Positions 10,657-59,628 of a stretch of DNA of 64,000 bases are shown piece after piece (within the stretch, counting starts at the first letter, position 1; every line of letters starts with the position of its first letter). Origin of the DNA: Hymenobacter pini (GTDB lineage: Bacteria; Bacteroidota; Bacteroidia; Cytophagales; Hymenobacteraceae); assembly GCF_020421205.1 (NCBI RefSeq), contig NZ_JAIZZH010000001.1:913691-977690 (forward strand). Direction: 5' to 3'. The translations under genes were made by a program, and so were the position numbers. The notes below the pieces were generated by a model that saw nothing but the letters and a program-made list of their open reading frames with translations, did not search any database and was not told the DNA's origin.

Positions 10657-11946
10657 ATGGCAAATCGAAACAAGCCCCTCTCGGTGGAAGCCCAGACTGC
10701 CCGCCGCGCGGCTGCGGTGCTGGCCAACCGCCCCGCCGGACACAAATGGTCCGTAGCTCGGCAAATTGATTTTATCTGTACGTGCAGCTCGGTAGCCGAA
10801 GTGCACGCCCGGTTAGAGCCCGATACCGTGGCGGCCCGGCTGTACGGCCACTGCCTGCACGGCCTCCCCGCCGCTGAGCAGGCCATCAGCCGGGAAGCAC
10901 TGCGGGCCCTGGCCCAAAGCCGCACCCACATCCTGACCCGCCCGGAGCTGGTGCCAGCGGTGGCGGCCATTACCCGGCTGTATCCGCGACGCTGCCGCGA
11001 GGTGGCGGCGTGGCACCCGCACCGGCGTAACGCGTTTCGGCAGCTCTACAGCCTGGTGCGCCACCTGTTCGATGCGTTTTATGACGTGCCGGGGTGGGTG
11101 GTGGAAGCCTGGGCAACCGGGCAGCTCACCCAGCACGAGGTGGACATGGCCCAGCTGACCGTGCACCTGGGCAGCGGCCAGGCTCTTCGGAGTTTTCCGA
11201 ATCTGCCCGTGCCGCTGAGCCGCCGCCTGGAGCACGAAATGCGCCAGGCCCCCTACGAGTACACGCTGGTGCAGGCCGTGCGCTATGCCCAGCTGGCCGC
11301 CACCGATGCCCTACACCTGCTGCCGCCGGTGCTGGGTACGCGGCTGGGCCGCGAAATCACCCCGCAGGATGCCGCCTGGTTGCAGGTGGTGGCGTTTTTT
11401 CGGTCGGCTCCGCTGCCCGCCGGCGCGCAGCTGGGGCGGGTGTGCGAGTGGATTGAAGCCGTGCGCACGGTAGGCATCAACGGCCAACCACCGCACCCCG
11501 GCTTCTCGCTGAAAGGCCGCCGGCCGGCCGCCGTGCTGGCCCAGGCCCGGCAGTGGTACCGCCGCACGCAGCGGGCCCGGGAGTACTGGGGCTACAATGT
11601 GGGCCTGGCTACCACCTGGGAAGGGTTGCCGTTTGCGGGGTACACCGCCCCCGGCCCTCACCGGGTGCACATCATCCAGCTGCTCAACTACGCCGCGTTG
11701 GTGGAGGAAGGCAGCCTGCAAAAGCATTGCGTGTCGTCGTACGTGTACTACTGCCTGCGGGGCCACTGCGGCATCTTCTCGCTGCGCATCAACGGGGTGC
11801 GGGCCCTCACGATGGAAGTGGAGCCCAACCGCCAGATCGTGCAGGTGCGGGGCCGCGACAACCGCTCACCTACCGAGCCGGAGCTGCACTGGCTCCGGTG
11901 CTGGATGGCCGAAGCCGGCCTCAGCCTCAGCGCCACGGCCTACTAA
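10657..11946 (+). CDS. PcfJ-like domain protein of the RNA-repair locus
   Basis: Protein of 429 residues. The C-terminal third carries the PcfJ-like pattern: HIIQLLNYAALVEEGSLQKHC near 335-355, then a Cys/Tyr-rich strand SSYVYYCLRGHCGIFSLRI, ALTMEVEPN near 388, QVRGRDNRSP and a final Trp/Leu helix. The N-terminal two thirds are helical and basic with no recognised domain. PcfJ was named from conjugative plasmids and its biochemical role is not established. Here it is the first gene of a co-directional set with TROVE, PARG and RtcB, so an RNA-related role is inferred from context only. No mobile-element genes are nearby. Confidence 0.75.
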   Translation: MANRNKPLSVEAQTARRAAAVLANRPAGHKWSVARQIDFICTCSSVAEVHARLEPDTVAARLYGHCLHGLPAAEQAISREALRALAQSRTHILTRPELVPAVAAITRLYPRRCREVAAWHPHRRNAFRQLYSLVRHLFDAFYDVPGWVVEAWATGQLTQHEVDMAQLTVHLGSGQALRSFPNLPVPLSRRLEHEMRQAPYEYTLVQAVRYAQLAATDALHLLPPVLGTRLGREITPQDAAWLQVVAFFRSAPLPAGAQLGRVCEWIEAVRTVGINGQPPHPGFSLKGRRPAAVLAQARQWYRRTQRAREYWGYNVGLATTWEGLPFAGYTAPGPHRVHIIQLLNYAALVEEGSLQKHCVSSYVYYCLRGHCGIFSLRINGVRALTMEVEPNRQIVQVRGRDNRSPTEPELHWLRCWMAEAGLSLSATAY

Positions 11947-12071: not shown

Positions 12072-12115
12072 CTCTGCTGCTTATCCGGTCGGGCGCGCCA
12101 CTATCCTCCCATACG

Positions 12116-13681
12116 ATGCGTTTCAACTATACTCCCGTTCCGGCGGCTACCGCCGTCAACCACGCCGGCGCACCTGCCTACGTGCTCACGTCGGCCCTGG
12201 AGCTGTACGCGGCCGTTGCCATGGCGGGCCTGCAGGACCAGTTCTACGAAAAAGCCGACACCCGCCTGGCCCGCCTGCGCCACCTGGTGGCCCATAACGA
12301 TGCCCGGTTTGTAGCCCAGCTGGCCGTGTACGCCCGCGAAAAGCTGCACCTGCGCTCTGTGCCATTGGTGCTGGCCGTGGAGCTGGCCCGCCAGCACCGG
12401 GGTACCAGCCTGGTAAGCCGCCTGGTGGCCCGAGTGGTGCAGCGCCCCGACGAAATTACCGAGCTGCTGGCCTACTACGCCGCCGCCAACGGCCGGAGCG
12501 GCCCCAAAACGCTGGGCCGCCTGTCGAAGCAGGTGCAGAAAGGCTTGGCGCTGGCGTTCAACAAGTTTGATGGCTACCAGCTGGCCAAGTACAACCGGGC
12601 CGGGGCCGTGCGTCTGCGCGACGCGTTGTTCCTGGTGCACCCCCGCCCGCACGACGACGCCCGCCAGGCACTGTTCGACCAGCTGGCCGCCGACACGCTG
12701 CCCACGCCCTACACCTGGGAAACCGAGTTGTCGGCCCTGGGGCAGGCGAGCTTTGCCACCGCCGAGGCGCGCACCGCCGCGTTCCGGCAGAAGTGGACGG
12801 AGCTGATTGACAGCGGCAAGCTGGGCTACATGGCGCTGCTGCGCAACCTGCGCAACATCTTGGAAGCCCAGGTACCCGCCGAAGCCCTCGGCCGGGTGTG
12901 CGCCACCCTGGCCGACGCCCGGCAGGTGGCCCGCAGCAAGCAGCTGCCGTTCCGGTTCCTGGCCGCCTACCGGGAGGTACTGGCGCTGAAAACCGGCGTG
13001 CTGACCTCCGCACTCACGGCCCTGGGCTTGCAACCCAACCCGGTGGCCCAGGTGCTGGCGGCCCTGGAAACGGCCATCGGCCACAGCGCTGCCAACCTGC
13101 CCGGTTTCGGCTCCGAAACCCGGGTGGTAGTGGCCTGCGACGTGTCGGGCTCCATGCAGCAGCCGGTGTCGGCGCGCAGCAAGGTGCTGCTCTACGACGT
13201 GGGCCTGGTGCTGGGCATGCTGCTGCAGAGCCGCTGCCCGAACGTGGTAACCGGCATCTTCGGCAACGTCTGGAAGCGCATTGCGCTGCCCGCCGGACCG
13301 GTGCTGCGCAACGTGCAGGAGCTGTACAAGCGCGAAGGGGAGGTGGGCTACAGCACCAACGGCTACCTGGTGATTGAGGACCTGCGCCGCCGCCGCGAGG
13401 TGGTGGATAAGGTACTACTCTTCACCGACTGCCAGCTGTGGAACACTCACCTCAACGGCACCAGTATGGCCCAGGAATGGGCTGAGTACCGCCGCACCGT
13501 GGCCCCCCACGCCCGGCTCTACCTCTTCGACCTGGCTGGGCACGGCACCACTCCGGTGCAGGTGAAGCCCGAGCACGGCGCGTACCTGCTGGCCGGGTGG
13601 TCGGATAAACTATTTGACGTGCTGACGGCGCTGGAAAACGGCGGTTCGGCCCTCACCGAAATCGAGCAAATCGACTTCTAA
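12116..13681 (+). CDS. rsr: TROVE/vWA protein, Ro60 (Rsr) orthologue
   Basis: Protein of 521 residues starting MRFNYTPVPAATAVNHAGAP, matching the usual start of bacterial Ro60 proteins. Residues ~20-330 are the helical-repeat TROVE ring (GLQDQFYEKADTRLARLRHL, YAREKLHLRSVPLVLAVELA, KFDGYQLAKYN). A von Willebrand A domain follows with MIDAS motif DVSGSM at 341-346. In characterised bacteria Ro60 binds Y RNAs on the outer face of the ring and works with exonucleases in RNA quality control. Candidate Y RNAs lie 1.3 kb downstream. An upstream in-frame extension overlaps the PcfJ gene and is rejected as coding. Confidence 0.93.
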   Translation: MRFNYTPVPAATAVNHAGAPAYVLTSALELYAAVAMAGLQDQFYEKADTRLARLRHLVAHNDARFVAQLAVYAREKLHLRSVPLVLAVELARQHRGTSLVSRLVARVVQRPDEITELLAYYAAANGRSGPKTLGRLSKQVQKGLALAFNKFDGYQLAKYNRAGAVRLRDALFLVHPRPHDDARQALFDQLAADTLPTPYTWETELSALGQASFATAEARTAAFRQKWTELIDSGKLGYMALLRNLRNILEAQVPAEALGRVCATLADARQVARSKQLPFRFLAAYREVLALKTGVLTSALTALGLQPNPVAQVLAALETAIGHSAANLPGFGSETRVVVACDVSGSMQQPVSARSKVLLYDVGLVLGMLLQSRCPNVVTGIFGNVWKRIALPAGPVLRNVQELYKREGEVGYSTNGYLVIEDLRRRREVVDKVLLFTDCQLWNTHLNGTSMAQEWAEYRRTVAPHARLYLFDLAGHGTTPVQVKPEHGAYLLAGWSDKLFDVLTALENGGSALTEIEQIDF

Positions 13682-13832: not shown

Positions 13833-14672
13833 ATGAACCGAGAATTCCGCCAACAGATTGCCCAAACCACCCTGGCCGCCCTGCAAACCGGCTGCTACCA
13901 GTCCGGTGAGGGCCCGGCCGTAGACCTGGCCACCGCGCAGCGCGCCGCCGAAACCGGCAGCCGCCTTTACAGCCCCGCCGATGCCGGCCTGCTGCTGCGG
14001 GAGCTGCACCCGGTGCCCGGCCCCCCGGCCGATATCCGGGTGTATGCGGCCACCACGCTGGAAGCCGCCGCCCGCCTAACGGCGGAGTACCGGCGGGTGG
14101 GCTGCCTCAACTTTGCCTCGGCCCGTAACCCGGGCGGCGGGTTTCTGAATGGCAGTCAGGCGCAGGAAGAAAGCCTGGCGCGGTCCTCGGGGCTGTATCC
14201 GTGCCTCACGCAGTTCAAGCAGATGTACGCCCACAACAAGCGCCCCGACGGCACGGCCCTCTACAGCGACTACCTGGTGTACTCGCCCGGGGTGCCGGTG
14301 TTTCGCGGCGAGGCGGGGGAGTGGCTGCCGCAGCCGTTGCTGCTGGATATCATCACGGCCCCGGCCGTGAATGCCGGGGCGCTACAGCGCAACTCCCCGG
14401 AGCTGATGCCGCAGCTGGAGCCGGTGATGCGCCACCGCCTGCGGCTGGTGCTGGCCACGGCCATACGTCACGGCGTGGAAGCCCTCGTGCTGGGGGCCTG
14501 GGGCTGCGGGGTTTTCGGCAACGACCCGGCCCAGGTGGCCCGGCTGTTCCGCGAAGCCCTGGCCGACCCCGCCATCCGCAACCGGTTCCGCCGCATCGAC
14601 TTTGCCATCTTCGACCCCAAGCCCCCGCACGCCGTGCTCCGGGCCTTCGAGGAAGCCTTGCAGGGCGCGTAG
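13833..14672 (+). CDS. macro-domain poly(ADP-ribose) glycohydrolase (microbial type)
   Basis: Protein of 279 residues begun at MNREFRQQIAQTTLAALQ, where the family (TIGR02452-type) normally starts; upstream in-frame ATGs cover the hairpin region. The catalytic PARG signature is present near 100-112: NPGGG-FLNGSQA-QEE, i.e. GGG, seven residues, QEE. The C-terminal macro core follows with LVLGAWGCGVFGNDP near 220 and RIDFAIFDP. Such enzymes remove ADP-ribose chains or related adducts. Next to Ro60 and RtcB it may erase ADP-ribosyl damage or process ADP-ribose-linked RNA ends; that link is inference from context. Confidence 0.9.
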   Translation: MNREFRQQIAQTTLAALQTGCYQSGEGPAVDLATAQRAAETGSRLYSPADAGLLLRELHPVPGPPADIRVYAATTLEAAARLTAEYRRVGCLNFASARNPGGGFLNGSQAQEESLARSSGLYPCLTQFKQMYAHNKRPDGTALYSDYLVYSPGVPVFRGEAGEWLPQPLLLDIITAPAVNAGALQRNSPELMPQLEPVMRHRLRLVLATAIRHGVEALVLGAWGCGVFGNDPAQVARLFREALADPAIRNRFRRIDFAIFDPKPPHAVLRAFEEALQGA

Positions 14673-14699
14673 CCGGGTACGATATGTGACCTACCGCCC

Positions 14700-14798
14700 G
14701 TCATGCAGAGGCGCAGCAGAAGCATCTCGCTTAGCTGACGTCTGAATACCATCACAATAGCAGCACGCACGATGCTTCGGCCTCTGGCCTCTGCATGG
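14700..14798. repeat. palindromic repeat after the PARG gene
   Basis: CATGCAGAGGC (14702-14712) pairs with GCCTCTGCATG (14787-14797), and inside it GAAGCATC pairs with GATGCTTC. It belongs to the dispersed palindrome family with GAAGCATC/GATGCTTC cores also seen at 52643-52786. It may help terminate the PARG transcript. Confidence 0.75.
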
Positions 14799-14836
14799 CA
14801 GTTCAGTAACTTCAAAAACCGCTTAAATCATTTTTA

Positions 14837-14874: not shown

Positions 14875-14946
14875 GGTGGCTGCCGCTCATTGGGCATCCA
14901 CCGGCCGGAATGGCTCCGATGCCGTGCGTTGCGGCCCGCCCATTCC
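14875..14946 (+). ncRNA. leader hairpins of the RNA array (degenerate unit?)
   Basis: Two hairpins follow the promoter. GGTGG-c-TGCC (14875-14884) pairs with GGCA-t-CCACC (ending 14902). GGAATGG (14907-14913) pairs with CCATTCC (14940-14946) and encloses GCCG-TGCGTTG-CGGC. The inner CGTTGC matches the YGTTRC strand of the full units, so this may be a shrunken unit without tRNA module. Confidence 0.5.
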
Positions 14947-14950
14947 ACCC

Positions 14951-15116
14951 CGACTGACGCTTTCCGGCTACCCGTAGCCGGTGTCGTAGGCAGGCGTTCC
15001 TTCGTCTGGTTGAAGCCCACCTTCTTGGTGGGTCAGGGTTCGAATCCCCGCCGCGGCCTGGCCGCGGTGTACCGCCTGCCGCCCGTTGCCCGGCTACCGG
15101 GCCGGAAGCGCAGTCG
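14951..15116 (+). ncRNA. Y-RNA-like unit 1, permuted tRNA-like module without D-arm
   Basis: The outer helix is CGACTG, CGCTTTCCGG, a CTA bulge, CCC and GTAGCCGG (14951-14981) paired with CCGGCTAC, GGG, CCGGAAGCG and CAGTCG (15090-15116). Then come the internal loop TGTCGTA (14982-14988) opposite GCCCGTTGC (15081-15089), inner stem GGCAGGCG/CGCCTGCC, and TCCTTCG (14998-15004). Inside lie the hairpin CCCACC-ttctt-GGTGGG, a T-arm CAGGG-TTCGAAT-CCCCG (15034-15050) and a 7-bp acceptor-like stem CCGCGGC-ctg-GCCGCGG (15051-15067) closed by a loop. No D-arm or anticodon arm is present. A T-run at 15124-15128 follows. Confidence 0.82.
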
Positions 15117-15128
15117 ATGGTTGTTTTT

Positions 15129-15282
15129 CGGGTAAGGCGGGTGCCGTAGCTGTGGCCTACTTCGCGCTCTTAACGCCCAGGTCGCGGGTTCGAGTCCCGC
15201 CGGTTTTTCTCTCGCGGGGAAGGCCGTAGCTCAGTTGGGTAGAGCAGGTCCTGGCCCGGCGCTTGTTGCCCCGCCCCACCCG
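15129..15282 (+). ncRNA. Y-RNA-like unit 2, permuted tRNA-like module
   Basis: The outer helix is CGGGT-aa-GGCGGG (15129-15141) with CCCGCC-cc-ACCCG (15270-15282), extendable by GTTT/AAAC. TGCCGTA (15142-15148) is followed by GCTGTGGCC and TACTTCG. T-arm GCGGG-TTCGAGT-CCCGC is at 15184-15200. An acceptor-like stem CGGTTTTTCTC/GGGGAAGGCCG is closed by TCGC. A textbook D-arm TA-GCTC-AGTTGGGTA-GAGC-A is at 15227-15246. The inner stem partner GGTCCTGGC (15247-15255) pairs 8 of 9, with wobbles, and TTGTTGC follows some 8 nt later. The T-arm precedes the D-arm, so the tRNA order is circularly permuted. Confidence 0.82.
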
Positions 15283-15447
15283 AAACACCGGAAGCAGTGT
15301 CGTACGGTTGCCCTCCTTCGCAGGTCAATTTCGAGTAAAAAGAAATTCGCGGGTTCGAATCCCGCCGGCCCGCACACCCGGGCCGTGGCTGAGTGGCTGA
15401 AAGCACCTTTTTCTAGCGGGCAACCGGCCTGTTACTTGCTTCTGTTT
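15283..15447 (+). ncRNA. Y-RNA-like unit 3, permuted tRNA-like module
   Basis: The outer helix is AAACA-ccg-GAAGCA (15283-15296) with TGCTTC-TGTTT (15437-15447). TGTCGTA (15298-15304) lies opposite GCCTGTTAC (15427-15435). The inner stem CGGTTGCCC (15305-15313) pairs perfectly with GGGCAACCG (15418-15426). TCCTTCG follows, then hairpin AATTTC-gagtaaaaa-GAAATT, T-arm GCGGG-TTCGAAT-CCCGC (15349-15365), acceptor-like stem CGGCCCG-cacacc-CGGGCCG (15366-15385, 7 bp perfect) and a class-II style D-arm TGGCT-GAGTGGCTGA-AAGCA (15386-15405). There is no anticodon arm. Confidence 0.87.
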
Positions 15448-15453
15448 ATAGTG

Positions 15454-15642
15454 CCAAACGCTGCCCCGCCGGGGCCGGATGCCGTAGGGCGGCCATACTT
15501 CGCAATAGGGTTGCCCGGGTCGCAGGTTCGAATCCTGCCGCAGCAGTTGCCCCCAAACCGGGCGGCTGGTGCGTAGCTCAGCTGGTAGAGCAGGATAGAG
15601 GCCGCCCGCCTGTTGCTCTGGCCCGCGGTGGGCAGCGTTTGG
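15454..15642 (+). ncRNA. Y-RNA-like unit 4, permuted tRNA-like module
   Basis: The outer helix opens with 13 perfect pairs, CCAAACGCTGCCC (15454-15466) with GGGCAGCGTTTGG (15630-15642), then continues after mismatches. TGCCGTA (15480-15486) lies opposite GCCTGTTGC (15608-15616). The inner stem GGGCGGCC pairs with GGCCGCCC (15600-15607), and TACTTCG is at 15496-15502. T-arm GCAGG-TTCGAAT-CCTGC is at 15522-15538. The acceptor-like stem CGCAGCAG/CTGGTGCG has one mismatch and is capped by a further GCCC/GGGC hairpin. The canonical D-arm TA-GCTC-AGCTGGTA-GAGC-A is at 15574-15592. Confidence 0.87.
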
Positions 15643-15644
15643 AA

Positions 15645-15740
15645 GGAAGCACCTGCCCGGTGTCTTATAATCGGCTACTGGCTGGCTCACTTCGATTAGT
15701 TTGAAGCGCCGGTTTGGCCGATAGCCCGGGTAGGGTTTCC
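15645..15740 (+). ncRNA. Y-RNA-like unit 5, hairpin without tRNA module
   Basis: GGAA plus CCTGCCCGG (15652-15660) pair with CCGGGTAGG (15726-15734) plus TTCC. TGTCTTA (15661-15667) replaces TGTCGTA. The inner helices are ATCGGC/GCCGAT, ACTGGC/GCCGGT and CTTC/GAAG, and CACTTCG (15688-15694) corresponds to the TACTTCG motif. No T-arm or D-arm is present. The opposite YGTTRC strand is not recognisable, so this unit is the most divergent. Confidence 0.6.
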
Positions 15741-15750
15741 TGGATGAGTG

Positions 15751-15851
15751 GGTGAGTTCCGGCTGTCGTAAAGCCGCGTTCCTTCGACCTGTTTCGTCGC
15801 TACTGCTTTGGCGTAGCTGCACGCGGCTTGCTGGTTACGCCGGAACTCACC
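15751..15851 (+). ncRNA. Y-RNA-like unit 6, hairpin next to rtcB
   Basis: A 13-bp perfect outer helix GGTGAGTTCCGGC (15751-15763) pairs with 15839-15851. TGTCGTA (15764-15770) lies opposite GCTGGTTAC (15830-15838). The inner stem AAGCCGCGT (15771-15779) pairs perfectly with ACGCGGCTT (15821-15829), and TCCTTCG follows at 15780-15786. The apex has hairpin GCTAC/GTAGC instead of a tRNA-like module. It ends 37 nt before the rtcB start codon, so it is either the last RNA of the array or a structured rtcB leader. Confidence 0.8.
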
Positions 15852-15888: not shown

Positions 15889-17292
15889 ATGGCCTCACAA
15901 TTACGCGGCAACGACCTTCGCCAACTGGGTTTCCCGGAAGGTCGGGCCATTGGGCTGGCGCTGGCTCAACTGCAGCGCAAGCACCTCAAAAAACTCTCGC
16001 AAACCGACCAGCTGACCTTGCTGAAGGAACTGCTGGCTAACCCCCAAACCTACCTCACCCACCTCGACTGGAGCCACACGGCCGCCGCGCTGCTGCCCCC
16101 GCCCAGCCGCCACATTGCCCTTGCCGAGCGCAAGGAGTACACCATCTTTGGGGCTGAGCACATCGAGCAGGGGGCCATTCATCAGATGGAAACGGCCATG
16201 AAGCTGCCCGTGGCGGTGGCCGGGGCCCTCATGCCCGATGCCCACCACGGCTACGGCCTGCCTATCGGGGGCGTGCTGGCCACCGATAATGCCGTAATTC
16301 CCTATGCCGTGGGCGTGGACATTGGGTGCCGCATGGCCCTGTCGGTGTTTCCGTTGCCGCCTAAGTTTCTGGAGCAGCGGGTGCAGGAGCTGCGCAAGCT
16401 GCTGCTGGAACACACCCGGTTCGGCGGGCGCGACGTCTTTCGCCACGGCCAGCGCCTCGACCACGCCGTGCTGAGCAGGGCGGAATTCCAAGACATTCCC
16501 TTCCTGCGCAATAAGCTGGACACAGCCGCAGCGCAGATTGGCTCCTCCGGCGGCGGCAACCACTTTGTAGAGTGGGGCGTGGTGGACATCCTCGACCCTG
16601 CCAACGAACTAGGCGTGCCGGTGGGCCAGTACTTGGGCCTGCTCTCGCACTCCGGTTCCCGGGGATTGGGGGCCAGCATTGCCAACCACTACACCAAGCT
16701 CGCGCAGGATACCTGCCAGCTCCCGGCCGAAGCCCGGCACTTGGCCTGGCTGAGCCTGGAGGCCGAAGCGGGGCAGGAATACTGGGCGGCCATGAGCCTG
16801 GCCGGGGACTACGCCTCGGCCTGTCACCACCAGATTCACCACCGCCTAGCCAAAGCACTCGGGGAAAAGCCCCTGGGAAAAGTAGAAAACCACCACAACT
16901 TTGCCTGGAAGGAGCAGCTGGTCTCGGGCCAGCAGGTGGTGGTGCACCGCAAGGGCGCTACCCCGGCCGGGGCGGGGGTACTGGGTATCATTCCCGGCTC
17001 CATGACGGCCCCCGGCTTCATTGTGCGGGGCCGGGGTGAAGCCAGCTCCCTAAGCTCGGCCTCGCACGGGGCGGGCCGGCTGATGTCGCGCACCCGGGCC
17101 AAGCAGGAGTTGGGCGAGGCCGAAGTGCGCCGCTACCTGCAGCAGCACGGGGTGGAACTCATCGGGGGCGGCCTCGATGAAGCTCCGCAGGCCTATAAAG
17201 ACATCCGCCAGGTGATGCAGAGCCAGACTGGCCTAGTAGACGTGCTGGGTTCATTCACGCCGCGCATCGTGCGGATGGAAGGCGGCGTGTAG
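15889..17292 (+). CDS. rtcB: RtcB RNA-splicing ligase
   Basis: Protein of 467 residues, complete. RtcB joins RNA 3'-phosphate or 2',3'-cyclic-phosphate ends to 5'-OH ends using GTP and Mn2+. Metal-site motifs are visible: MPDAHHGYGLPIGGV near 113, VGVDIGCRMA with the metal-binding Cys near 144, GSSGGGNHFVEW near 220, LLSHSGSRGLG near 253, and SASHGAGRLMSR near 395, which holds the His guanylylated in characterised RtcB. The sequence diverges from E. coli RtcB in its first ~80 residues. No RtcA, archease or RtcR is in the window. It is the last gene of the RNA-repair locus and a terminator follows. Confidence 0.95.
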   Translation: MASQLRGNDLRQLGFPEGRAIGLALAQLQRKHLKKLSQTDQLTLLKELLANPQTYLTHLDWSHTAAALLPPPSRHIALAERKEYTIFGAEHIEQGAIHQMETAMKLPVAVAGALMPDAHHGYGLPIGGVLATDNAVIPYAVGVDIGCRMALSVFPLPPKFLEQRVQELRKLLLEHTRFGGRDVFRHGQRLDHAVLSRAEFQDIPFLRNKLDTAAAQIGSSGGGNHFVEWGVVDILDPANELGVPVGQYLGLLSHSGSRGLGASIANHYTKLAQDTCQLPAEARHLAWLSLEAEAGQEYWAAMSLAGDYASACHHQIHHRLAKALGEKPLGKVENHHNFAWKEQLVSGQQVVVHRKGATPAGAGVLGIIPGSMTAPGFIVRGRGEASSLSSASHGAGRLMSRTRAKQELGEAEVRRYLQQHGVELIGGGLDEAPQAYKDIRQVMQSQTGLVDVLGSFTPRIVRMEGGV

Positions 17293-38164: not shown

Positions 38165-38263
38165 TTGTTTTTATACAGAGGCGCTGAGAGACAGGCTCGA
38201 AGACGCGTCGGCAACCATCCGCAAGCTCCGGAACGGTGCCAATTCCTGACCATATAAAAACAA
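38165..38263 (+). promoter_or_regulatory. SAM-I (S-box) riboswitch
   Basis: Closing helix P1 TTGTTTTTATA (38165-38175) pairs perfectly with 38253-38263. The SAM-I core is conserved: GCTGAGAGACAGGCTCGAAG, GTCGGCAACC, and GGTGCCAATTCCTGAC. It binds S-adenosylmethionine and normally turns downstream expression off. Here it precedes a Cys-rich leader peptide and an APC permease, implying that the permease imports a sulfur amino acid. Confidence 0.93.
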
Positions 38264-52642: not shown

Positions 52643-52786
52643 TCATACTGAGCTTGCCGAAGCATCTCTACCGCTTTGCTTGGGCGGTTCAGTAGCCCAG
52701 GGTTTAAACCCTGGGCTATGGAGCGGTTATCGGTGCTGCCATCTGATTAGCCAGAGGTGGAGATGCTTCGGCAAGCTCAGCATGAC
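52643..52786. repeat. compound palindromic repeat upstream of cobA
   Basis: TCATACTGAGCTTGCCGAAG and following GCATCTC at the left pair with GAGATGCTTCGGCAAGCTCA and GCATGA at the right. A perfect 26-bp palindrome built on CCCAGGGTTTAAACCCTGGG lies in the middle at 52693-52718. Non-coding, between cysN and cobA. Confidence 0.88.
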
Positions 52787-56363: not shown

Positions 56364-56461
56364 TTGTTTTTATATGGTCAGGACTTGGCACCGTTTCGGA
56401 TTTTCCGCTGGTTGCCGGCGCTTCAGGGAGCCTGTCTCTCCACGCCTCTGTATAAAAACAA
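56364..56461 (-). promoter_or_regulatory. SAM-I (S-box) riboswitch
   Basis: P1 strands TTGTTTTTATA/TATAAAAACAA are perfect. The core on the minus strand has GGAGAGACAGGCTCCCTGAAG, CGCCGGCAACC and GGTGCCAAGTCCTGAC. It matches the riboswitch at 38165-38263 closely in P1 and core but differs in helix sequence (compensated). Controls the sulfate operon by SAM. Confidence 0.93.
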
Positions 56462-56593: not shown

Positions 56594-56676
56594 GTCATCC
56601 TGAGCTTGCGAAGGACCTTATCACGTCGGCGCAATTCGTTGCAACGTGGTAAGGTCCTTCGCAAGCTCAGGATGAC
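56594..56676. repeat. dispersed palindromic repeat
   Basis: GTCATCCTGAGCTTGCGAAG and GACCTTATCACGT pair with ACGTGGTAAGGTC and CTTCGCAAGCTCAGGATGAC. A near-perfect 33-nt inverted repeat with ~17 nt loop, between the sulfate promoter and the flippase gene. Confidence 0.9.
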
Positions 56677-58171: not shown

Positions 58172-58197
58172 AAGGTGAAATGGTGAAAGGTGAAATA

Positions 58198-58289
58198 GTG
58201 AGATGGTGAAATAGTGAACTGGTGAGTTTCCTCTTTAAGTCGCGCATGCTGAGCAGAAAACTCACCAGTTCACTACTTCACCATCTCAC
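58198..58289. repeat. 32-bp inverted repeat flanking the 3' end of the deacetylase gene
   Basis: The arm at 58198-58229 (GTGAGATGGTGAAATAGTGA and onward) pairs with 58258-58289 at 31 of 32 positions. More GGTGAAA repeats precede it up to the TTG start at 58171. The right arm holds the last codons and stop of the deacetylase-like gene. Confidence 0.88.
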
Positions 58290-59628
58290 TTACTATATCC
58301 GAGCCATTGACGAAGGCCACGTTGCGGCTGCGAAGGTACTCCATGAGTGCGCGGAACTCGCTCGGGCCGTTGCAGTGGTTAGCCGGGTCGAAGTTTTCGT
58401 TGTGCCAAAGCACCGTACACACGCCCCCAAACCGCTCAATCTCCTGAAACATGGGCGTGAGGGCCGGCAGAATTTCCTCCGGAGCCAGCTGCAGATATTT
58501 CGGGTGGTGCAGGGTGGCGTCCATCACATTGAGCGGGATTTCGAGGAAATCAGCTGCTTCGCCTAGTTGGAAATTAAATAAGTTAAATGGTAGACAGTAG
58601 GAATTACGGAAACCGTAGTGCTCGGCAAAGCCTAGCGTAGAATCGTAACCATTGGTTAGATTATCCACCAGATCTGGTGTCACACGCGGCTCCCATTGCA
58701 AGTAGTGGAAGCGCAGTCCCCAACCTGCGGAGTCGAATGAAACTACTTCATCATACAACCTATCGGGGTCAAGCGAAGTGCCTAAACTGCCGTGAAGCGC
58801 TACTTCTGCGCCGTGCTGTTTCAGAGTGGCTATGACTGGCAAGATTTGCTTTACTTGATAATCCGCATTGGGCGTGCCGTTGGGGGCCTTGCGGTGCTCG
58901 GGAAGGAAGAAGAATGTGCTTTTGGCGCCATACTCGGCTACGGTTTTCTGCACCTCAATTAGGTTGTCCCAGGCGTCTTTCTGGGTGAAGTGCTGCCAGT
59001 AGCGGCGGGCGAAATCCAGCCAGTCGCGGCGCTGCAGGGCGGCTTTGGCGGGGGCTTTCCAGGCGCTGTAGAGGTTGTCGATGTCGTGGGTGATAAAGGC
59101 GGCCCAGGCGCGGCCATCGGCCCAGCGGCGGGGGCGCAGGGGCTGGCCGCCGGCGTGTTCCACGGCCGCCCGCAACACCTCGAAGTAGTGGTTCACCACC
59201 GGCACCGTTACAAAGCCGTAGCGCTGCTGCACGCTGGCCGCGTAGGGGAAGCGCCCATGCTGGTCCCGCTCGTCGGAGTAGAACTCCTGCCAGCCGCTGA
59301 GCAGGTAGAAGGCCGCCGAGACCACATCGGCCTGCACCCGGACCCGGCCGTTGGGCAGCAGCTCCAGCAGCGGCCGGGCGGGTTGGTCGTCGAAGAAAAA
59401 CGGGAGCTGCCGGCCCTGCCACTCCCGCCACACTGGCGGGGCCGGATAGGGGGCCGTACCCGCAAAAAAACCGTGCTCCACGGCGGCTACCTCCACCTGT
59501 GGCTGCGTACCGGCATACCCAATACTGACCGTTGGGACGGTATCATACGCCTGCCAGAAGTGCTGGAGCACGTAGTGAAGTCGGCTTTCAGCAGTAGTTG
59601 CGGGTACAGAAGGCAGCGGCGGTAACAT
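58273..59628 (-). CDS. polysaccharide deacetylase-like protein (DUF7033 type)
   Basis: Protein of 451 residues. N-terminal ~140 residues form a lead domain; the NodB-like part starts near 170 with AWAAFITHDIDNLY (metal Asp/His), STFFFLPEHRKAPNG near 240, EVALHGSLGT near 277 and CTVLWHNENFD near 415. It likely trims N-acetyl groups or has lost activity; the second metal His pattern is not fully canonical. The last residues SEMVK are encoded by the inverted repeat at 58258-58289. Confidence 0.82.
   Translation of the reverse strand: MLPPLPSVPATTAESRLHYVLQHFWQAYDTVPTVSIGYAGTQPQVEVAAVEHGFFAGTAPYPAPPVWREWQGRQLPFFFDDQPARPLLELLPNGRVRVQADVVSAAFYLLSGWQEFYSDERDQHGRFPYAASVQQRYGFVTVPVVNHYFEVLRAAVEHAGGQPLRPRRWADGRAWAAFITHDIDNLYSAWKAPAKAALQRRDWLDFARRYWQHFTQKDAWDNLIEVQKTVAEYGAKSTFFFLPEHRKAPNGTPNADYQVKQILPVIATLKQHGAEVALHGSLGTSLDPDRLYDEVVSFDSAGWGLRFHYLQWEPRVTPDLVDNLTNGYDSTLGFAEHYGFRNSYCLPFNLFNFQLGEAADFLEIPLNVMDATLHHPKYLQLAPEEILPALTPMFQEIERFGGVCTVLWHNENFDPANHCNGPSEFRALMEYLRSRNVAFVNGSDIVSEMVK

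Follow-up and report, generated by a model that had tools for sequence, protein, structure and literature searches.

The YrlA RNAs are the closest described relatives of the RNAs considered here. The available parts of PMC8394870 describe YrlA as composed of D-, T- and acceptor arms, with no anticodon arm, and the accessible portions of PMC7790460 and PMC8394870 present the YrlA head as a substrate of DusA and TruB. In Salmonella, Y RNA genes lie beside rtcB in the rsr-yrlBA-rtcBA operon, according to the available text of PMC7790460, and in Deinococcus a Y RNA tethers Rsr to PNPase (PMC7790460 and PMC8394870, in the same portions).

The locus described here was found in Hymenobacter pini, in a 64-kb stretch of DNA (64,000 nucleotides, hereafter the window); the SRP RNA, too, probably assigns the genome to Bacteroidota. 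An earlier note on this DNA had considered the RNAs encoded between its Ro60/PARG and RtcB genes to be Y-RNA-like, and the units of the array are almost certainly YrlA-like Y RNAs, as indicated by their gene context, sub-threshold matches to the Rfam YrlA model, covariation and a linkage to Ro60 that holds in every one of the 84 Ro60-bearing genomes. On balance, we favour the view that the locus encodes tandem predicted Y RNAs with a common Ro60-type stem and different tRNA-like heads that are likely to be exchangeable adaptors.

The Locus and Its Units

On the + strand of the window, Pfam gave the gene order PcfJ-like, Ro60 (TROVE), PARG, array and RtcB (Table 1), with a vWA_Ro60 match in the Ro60 gene (25.5 bits) under the cut-off of that family; rtcB starts 37 bases past U6, the end of the array. 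The gene context agrees with an array of hairpin RNAs at 14951-15851, between Ro60/PARG and RtcB, as the earlier note had it, and Pfam gave no family for four ORFs (81-165 aa) that overlie the array stretch. The PcfJ-like gene (window 10657-11946) is a recurrent neighbour of Ro60 and the array. A promoter search at the window's array gave nothing convincing, with one site versus 0.6 expected, and a Bacteroidota-type promoter was found upstream of the first unit in none of the 79 loci tested.

Folding predicts six separate hairpins in 14951-15851, at about the places first noted. Five units carry TGYCGTA followed, after about 8-9 nt, by YNCTTCG (at 14982, 15142, 15298, 15480 and 15764), and the partner strand of this Ro stem is directly followed by GTTRC; the TGYCGTA / CTTCG motif had been correctly recognised in these five. 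The complementarity reported for the stem holds in U3 and U6 (9 of 9 positions) and in U1 and U4 (8 of 8), whereas U2, aligned as in the covariance model, shows less complementarity than claimed (6 of 8). The proposed family of six is reduced to five units with a Ro-type stem (U1-U4 and U6), as U5 lacks the motif and yielded no homologue: it reads TGTCTTA and has no GTTRC, and blastn (E <= 1e-3) found no match to it in 80 related arrays. The U5 region (15630-15745) folds with -56.1 kcal/mol. U6, which is joined to U1 by the direct repeat D3, has no T loop and no tRNA-like head. R1, a covariance model built from 67 units of the genus, scores U2 at 124 bits and U4 at 112.9 bits, both being rows of the model itself, U3, which stands outside its rows, at 48 bits, and U1 at 32.6 bits (14982-15092); at E <= 1 it finds nothing beyond U1-U4 in the 64-kb window.

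Just upstream of U1, at 14906-14948, lies an element (GGAATGG ... TGCCGT-GC-GTTGC ... CCATTCC) that contains both halves of the Ro motif, is headless and has the look of a shrunken Y unit. Elsewhere in the window, SAM riboswitches score over the Rfam cut-off at 38168-38260 (+) and 56367-56458 (-). Inverted repeats around GAAGCATCTC / GATGCTTC, perhaps REP-like, occur at 14698-14800, 52643-52785 and 56598-56672, the latter two with doubtful Rfam matches under the cut-off, and a long near-perfect inverted repeat at 58195-58292 has microRNA-family matches, also under the Rfam cut-off.

Table 1. Genes flanking the array and features of its units (window coordinates).
Feature	Position	Strand	Basis or remarks
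Ro60 (TROVE) gene	12074..13681	+	Pfam TROVE 5.3e-27
Microbial-type PARG gene	13833..14672	+	PF10021 1.6e-46; between Ro60 and array
U1	14951..15116	+	Fold; Ro stem 14982-14996 / 15073-15089
U1 hairpin	15016-15032	+	Fold
U1 T-arm	around 15036-15048	+	Typed 'T only', without D-arm
U2	15129..15282	+	Ro stem 15149-15156 / 15253-15260
U2 miniature anticodon arm	15164-15176	+	Loop CTCTTAA; triplet CUU (lysine) 15169-15171; alignment A2
U2 T-arm, then acceptor, then D-arm	T-arm 15184-15200; D-arm 15229-15245	+	
U3	15289..15444	+	Ro stem 15305-15313 / 15418-15426; alignment A5
U3 long variable-arm-like hairpin	15327-15347	+	6 bp, adjoins T stem
U3 T-arm, then acceptor, then serine-type D-arm	T-arm 15349-15365; D-arm 15385-15404	+	
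U4	15454..15642	+	Ro stem 15487-15494 / 15600-15607
U4 miniature anticodon-like arm	15502-15514	+	Loop ATAGGGT
U4 T-arm, then acceptor, then class I D-arm	T-arm from 15522; D-arm 15576-15591	+	
U5	15644..15740	+	Bulged hairpin without common motif; membership uncertain
U6	15750..15851	+	Fold; Ro stem 15771-15779 / 15821-15829
RtcB RNA ligase gene	15889..17292	+	PF01139 7.1e-84

Conservation and Covariation

TROVE is present in 84 of the 120 genomes of the genus, and 80 of the 83 Ro60 loci other than that of the window were fetched, G090, G095 and G108 (fragmented) being left out. Ro60, array and RtcB follow one another on one strand in all 80 fetched loci as well as in the window. In these 81 loci RtcB follows the end of Ro60 or PARG at a distance of 0.8-3.3 kb; PARG is found in 33 of them, and 9 have a PcfJ gene downstream of Ro60. 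The 81 gaps contain 403 motif-anchored units, one to nine per locus (mean 5.0), or one to six when those with a T loop are counted; 93 units are without a T loop and 118 have the T-arm only or a weak D-half. R1 matches (E <= 1e-8) were obtained in 88 of the 120 genomes, including every one of the 84 with TROVE. Among the 36 genomes without TROVE, one has a strong match (G044, 1.2e-28) and three have weak ones (G010, G028 and G082). G044 is a natural case of Ro60 loss with the RNAs kept: in this genome (L300 10669-11062, - strand) only stretches matching residues 6-101 and 501-535 are left of Ro60, and PcfJ, PARG, three or four units and RtcB are retained. The family set outside the genus comprised 19 Ro60 genomes, of which all but G458 were fetched; each of these 18 loci has three to seven motif matches, and RtcB lies within 7 of the 18 stretches. 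Among viral contigs, no relative of the window's Ro60 was found.

Pairing of the Ro stem was assessed genus-wide on units whose anchors had been picked by motif, independently of pairing. In 242 units from 79 loci, 6.72 of 8 positions were paired. Exchanging partners at random between units gave 4.96 ± 0.07 and never more than 5.19 in 1000 shuffles, and slid registers gave 3.0-4.1. This places the pairing far beyond chance, and the covariation that the earlier note had read from the units of the window thereby extends to the genus.

The structure as a whole was evaluated on alignment A2 (67 of 70 genus units), the rows of which were chosen by a pattern and a paired Ro stem. The pattern fixes C24, G35 and C36, and G23 is given by the anchor, while the pair 25-34, the loop and the remaining helices are unconstrained by the choice of rows. 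On A2, 96.2% of the cells in the five-helix structure are paired versus 85.6% after shuffling, a comparison in which the choice of rows tilts the fixed anticodon-stem pairs and helix 1 towards the structure. Since the rows were picked partly for a paired Ro stem, the motif-anchored test of 242 units is the fairer one for that helix. Cells with two-sided changes number 181, versus 46.2 ± 5.9 in the shuffles, and none of 500 shuffles reached either the paired fraction or the two-sided count; these shuffles ignore relatedness, for which the slid registers (33-51% paired) account. Less striking is the number of pairs with a two-sided change (14 versus 12.2 shuffled, reached in 42 of 500). RNAalifold recovers the same five helices from A2 unaided, with small differences at helix ends.

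tRNA-Like Heads

The first reading of the array had captured its hairpins and motif and overlooked the T-arms of U1-U4 and the D-arms of U2-U4. T-arms resembling GGGTTCGAATCCC are found at 15036, 15186, 15351 and 15524, and the three D-arms were read from the sequence (Table 1). In U2, U3 and U4 the head runs from the T-arm through a loop-closed acceptor stem to the D-arm, that is, in a circularly permuted order as in YrlA, and the Ro stem joins the head where the D-arm would lead into the anticodon arm. The Rfam YrlA model (RF02553) gives 40.6 bits for U2 (15176-15249), 35.3 for U4 and 20.5 for U3, and its gathering score of 69 bits is reached by no unit of the window, so that U2-U4 were filed as YrlA-like and not as Rfam YrlA; in the match to U4, part of the anticodon-like arm appears as an insertion. 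Over 296 genomes of the phylum, a single genome exceeds the cut-off of this model. At E <= 0.001 matches appear in 84 of the 296, but also in 6 of 14 controls, E. coli among them. One match in the window's own genome corresponds to two neighbouring tRNA genes, and we suspect that many of the phylum-wide matches are likewise tRNA genes.

The heads were compared with the tRNAs of one genome, the window's own (47 matches, 36 anticodons), the D-half and the T-half being scored apart and the anticodon arm left out. The two halves agree on the isotype in 40 of 192 cases, against 16.9 ± 3.5 with shuffled T-halves (largest of 2000, 29), the counts coming from related, non-independent sequences. Leu-type D-halves occur in 27 units from 27 loci, with a mean margin of 16.7 over the next isotype, and the T-half is best matched by Leu in 16 of these units and by another isotype in 11; alignment A4 covers 25 of the 27. 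The 14 units with Ser-type D-halves have a mean margin of 10.4, with a Ser T-half in 8 and another isotype best in 6. A hairpin of at least 5 bp beside the T stem is present in 25 of 41 Leu/Ser-type heads versus 16 of 151 class I heads, at a threshold taken afterwards from the same table; a 4-bp threshold separates the classes less well (33/41 versus 82/151). This hairpin resembles the long variable arm, as in tRNA-Leu and tRNA-Ser. Class I and class II heads stand side by side in 37 of the 81 loci. In the window, the D-half of U3 is best matched by Ser (margin 7.5) and its T-half by Asp.

Judged by their sequences, the heads that are clearly isotype-specific are Leu and Ser only; for Lys- and Met-type D-arms the margin averages 3.2 and 3.6, respectively, and the T-halves of these heads do not agree with the D-arms. 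Lys was rejected as the isotype of the class I D-arm, which is not discriminating, and a Lys assignment therefore comes from the anticodon loop alone. By eye, a Leu-type head in Pelomonas (L226:9074 onward) is apparently cut inside the D-loop, which would be a second permutation site, and similar heads are seen in L217, L218 and L220.

A Miniature Anticodon Arm

Ahead of the variable region, 70 units from 63 loci of the genus have a 3-bp stem with a mostly 7-nt loop, a miniature anticodon arm that the Rfam YrlA model does not contain. The lysine loop CTYTTAA (UUU or CUU) accounts for 38 of the 70 units, in 38 loci. The loop measures 7 nt in 66 of the A2 units, of which 65 have Y32, 61 U33 and 64 R37, and the triplets of the A2 units with U33 are Lys (38), Arg (6), Gln (3), Asn (3) and others. 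The unconstrained stem pair 25-34 is A-U in 53 units, G-C in 10 and unpaired in 4, so that both sides change. When all genus units with a T loop were taken at a fixed register, 116 of 310 had the hairpin, against 12-50 at shifted registers, with U33 in 73 of the 116; the lower rate in this test reflects the mixing of all head types.

An alignment of seven Ro60 proteins served to scan named genomes for distant Ro60 loci; the best 80 of 515 confirmed places were taken, which by their titles are largely Proteobacteria, Verrucomicrobia, Acidobacteria and Planctomycetes. An RtcB gene lies within the fetched stretch in 72 of the 80. Motif-anchored units with a T loop occur, singly or in greater number, in 68 of 82 distant Ro60 loci, and in 32 of those 68 there are three or more. 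The latter figure runs against the earlier statement that the usual copy number is one or two. Nor can a multi-copy family beside rtcB be called new, since multi-copy loci occur in this distant set and the Salmonella operon is already known (PMC7790460, in the portion available).

In the distant loci, a model-free search that required only the YrlA 5' motif and a T loop gave, after removal of double counts, 159 distinct units, spread over 66 of the 80 loci. A 3-bp/7-nt hairpin is present in 55 of 94 testable units (50 of the 80 loci), sitting exactly 7 nt before the T stem, while eight shifted registers give 0-15. These 55 hairpins have U33 in 49 cases, Y32 in 49 and R37 in 44, and the combination Y32-U33-R37 in 40 versus 0-1 at shifted registers. 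Their stems covary (AGA/TCT 13, AGC/GCT 12, AGG/CCT 9, TCA/TGA 5, and more). R1 detects the arm in 57 of 116 testable matches in the distant set (72 loci), with U33 in 56; a few R1 matches are not near Ro60 and probably represent tRNA genes. The presence of the arm in distant loci indicates that it is widespread among YrlA-type RNAs and not special to the genus, and suggests that the Rfam YrlA model is incomplete; about as many distant units are without the arm as with it.

The loops were also compared with real tRNA loops, the reference being those of the window's genome only. Identical loops number 5 of 26 distinct ones in the genus (a value reached by 249 of 5000 column-shuffles), 7 of 37 elsewhere (338 of 5000) and 10 of 57 when pooled (46 of 5000). 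Such exact identity weakly supports the idea that the loops may be copies of real tRNA loops.

Possible Roles of the Heads

The heads differ in the variable arm and the anticodon loop, which are the parts that proteins use to distinguish tRNAs, and it is for this reason that exchangeable adaptors are favoured. The adaptor role itself is put forward tentatively. The units would be transcribed together with Ro60 and RtcB and would bind Ro60, and a partner protein would read the head, in analogy with the PNPase tethered by the Deinococcus Y RNA; exchangeable heads would in this manner tether Ro60 to tRNA-recognising enzymes. If different tRNAs, anticodon loops included, are imitated within a single array, tRNA-specific proteins are the probable readers of the head. 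A broader proposal, possible rather than probable when taken as a whole, is that Ro60 with a panel of permuted, isotype-specific tRNA mimics, conserved across phyla and in many cases bearing a miniature anticodon loop of true shape (Lys, Asn, Arg, Asp and others), would form, together with RtcB, a tRNA-damage surveillance system, each Y RNA luring or recruiting the enzyme of one tRNA. If true, Ro60, an autoantigen of vertebrates also found in bacteria, would be tied concretely to tRNA damage and repair.

A close rival of the adaptors, which like them we infer, is that the heads are decoys. Placed on Ro60, they would serve as bait for tRNA-cleaving enzymes (anticodon nucleases), close to the ligase RtcB, which would mend the real tRNAs once cleaved. 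That anticodon loops with U33 are kept though the closed acceptor end prevents charging would be understandable on these terms, as would the lysine loop in 38 of the 70 units of the genus subset and the proximity of RtcB; moreover, in the accessible part of PMC7790460, its authors suggest competitive nuclease inhibition for YrlA. However, no anticodon loop could be discerned in Leu and Ser heads, although these have a variable-arm hairpin, U1 and U6 have no such loop, and the arm is absent from many units in the genus and elsewhere, so that decoys seem a somewhat unlikely answer.

It is also conceivable, but unlikely, that the copies are simply redundant YrlA RNAs, all of whose heads tether Ro60 to PNPase (RYPER) and which diverged neutrally, tRNA resemblance serving only folding, stability and modification. 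PNPase tethering is the experimentally known role (PMC7790460 and PMC8394870, in the portions available), and the class I D-arms are not isotype-specific, as redundancy would have it. Neutral drift is not expected, however, to hold together Leu-/Ser-type D-arms and a long variable-arm hairpin, nor a loop that keeps U33 and a mostly purine position 37 while stem and triplet change. Finally, a decayed or disrupted tRNA gene cluster of one strain, to which the T-arm and D-arm pieces and a 26.4-bit Rfam tRNA match at 15140-15208 (cut-off 29) might point, is ruled out with near certainty by the covarying Ro stem and the conservation of R1 matches in all 84 Ro60 genomes, along with the permuted arms and the failure of ARAGORN to find a tRNA within the array.

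Comparison with Known Systems

Two features of the array of proposed exchangeable adaptors are apparently new, namely the miniature anticodon arm and the resemblance of the heads of one array to different tRNAs; a literature search, conducted outside the key YrlA papers, recognised no report of isotype diversity or of an anticodon arm in Y RNAs. Like the array, YrlA adjoins Ro60 and RtcB, forms its stem from the 5' and 3' ends and has T-arm, acceptor stem and D-arm in permuted order. The array differs from it in the TGYCGTA/GTTRC stem motif (GAATGC/TTGTCG in the distant loci), in its one to nine units per locus with differing heads, and in the miniature anticodon arm, which is absent from RF02553 and from the description of YrlA in the available part of PMC8394870. 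The DrY RNA of Deinococcus, considered here from its description alone, in the portions of the literature available, is also encoded with Ro60 and shares the proposed tethering logic.

As in tmRNA and other tRNA-like RNAs, a tRNA body is grafted on another RNA, but the array is distinguished by its tie to Ro60 and by acceptor stems that end in a loop, so that charging of the heads is not to be expected. In algae and archaea, circularly permuted tRNA genes are processed into normal tRNAs. They share the permuted order of arms with the array, whose predicted RNAs differ from them in keeping the Ro stem and the closed acceptor loop.
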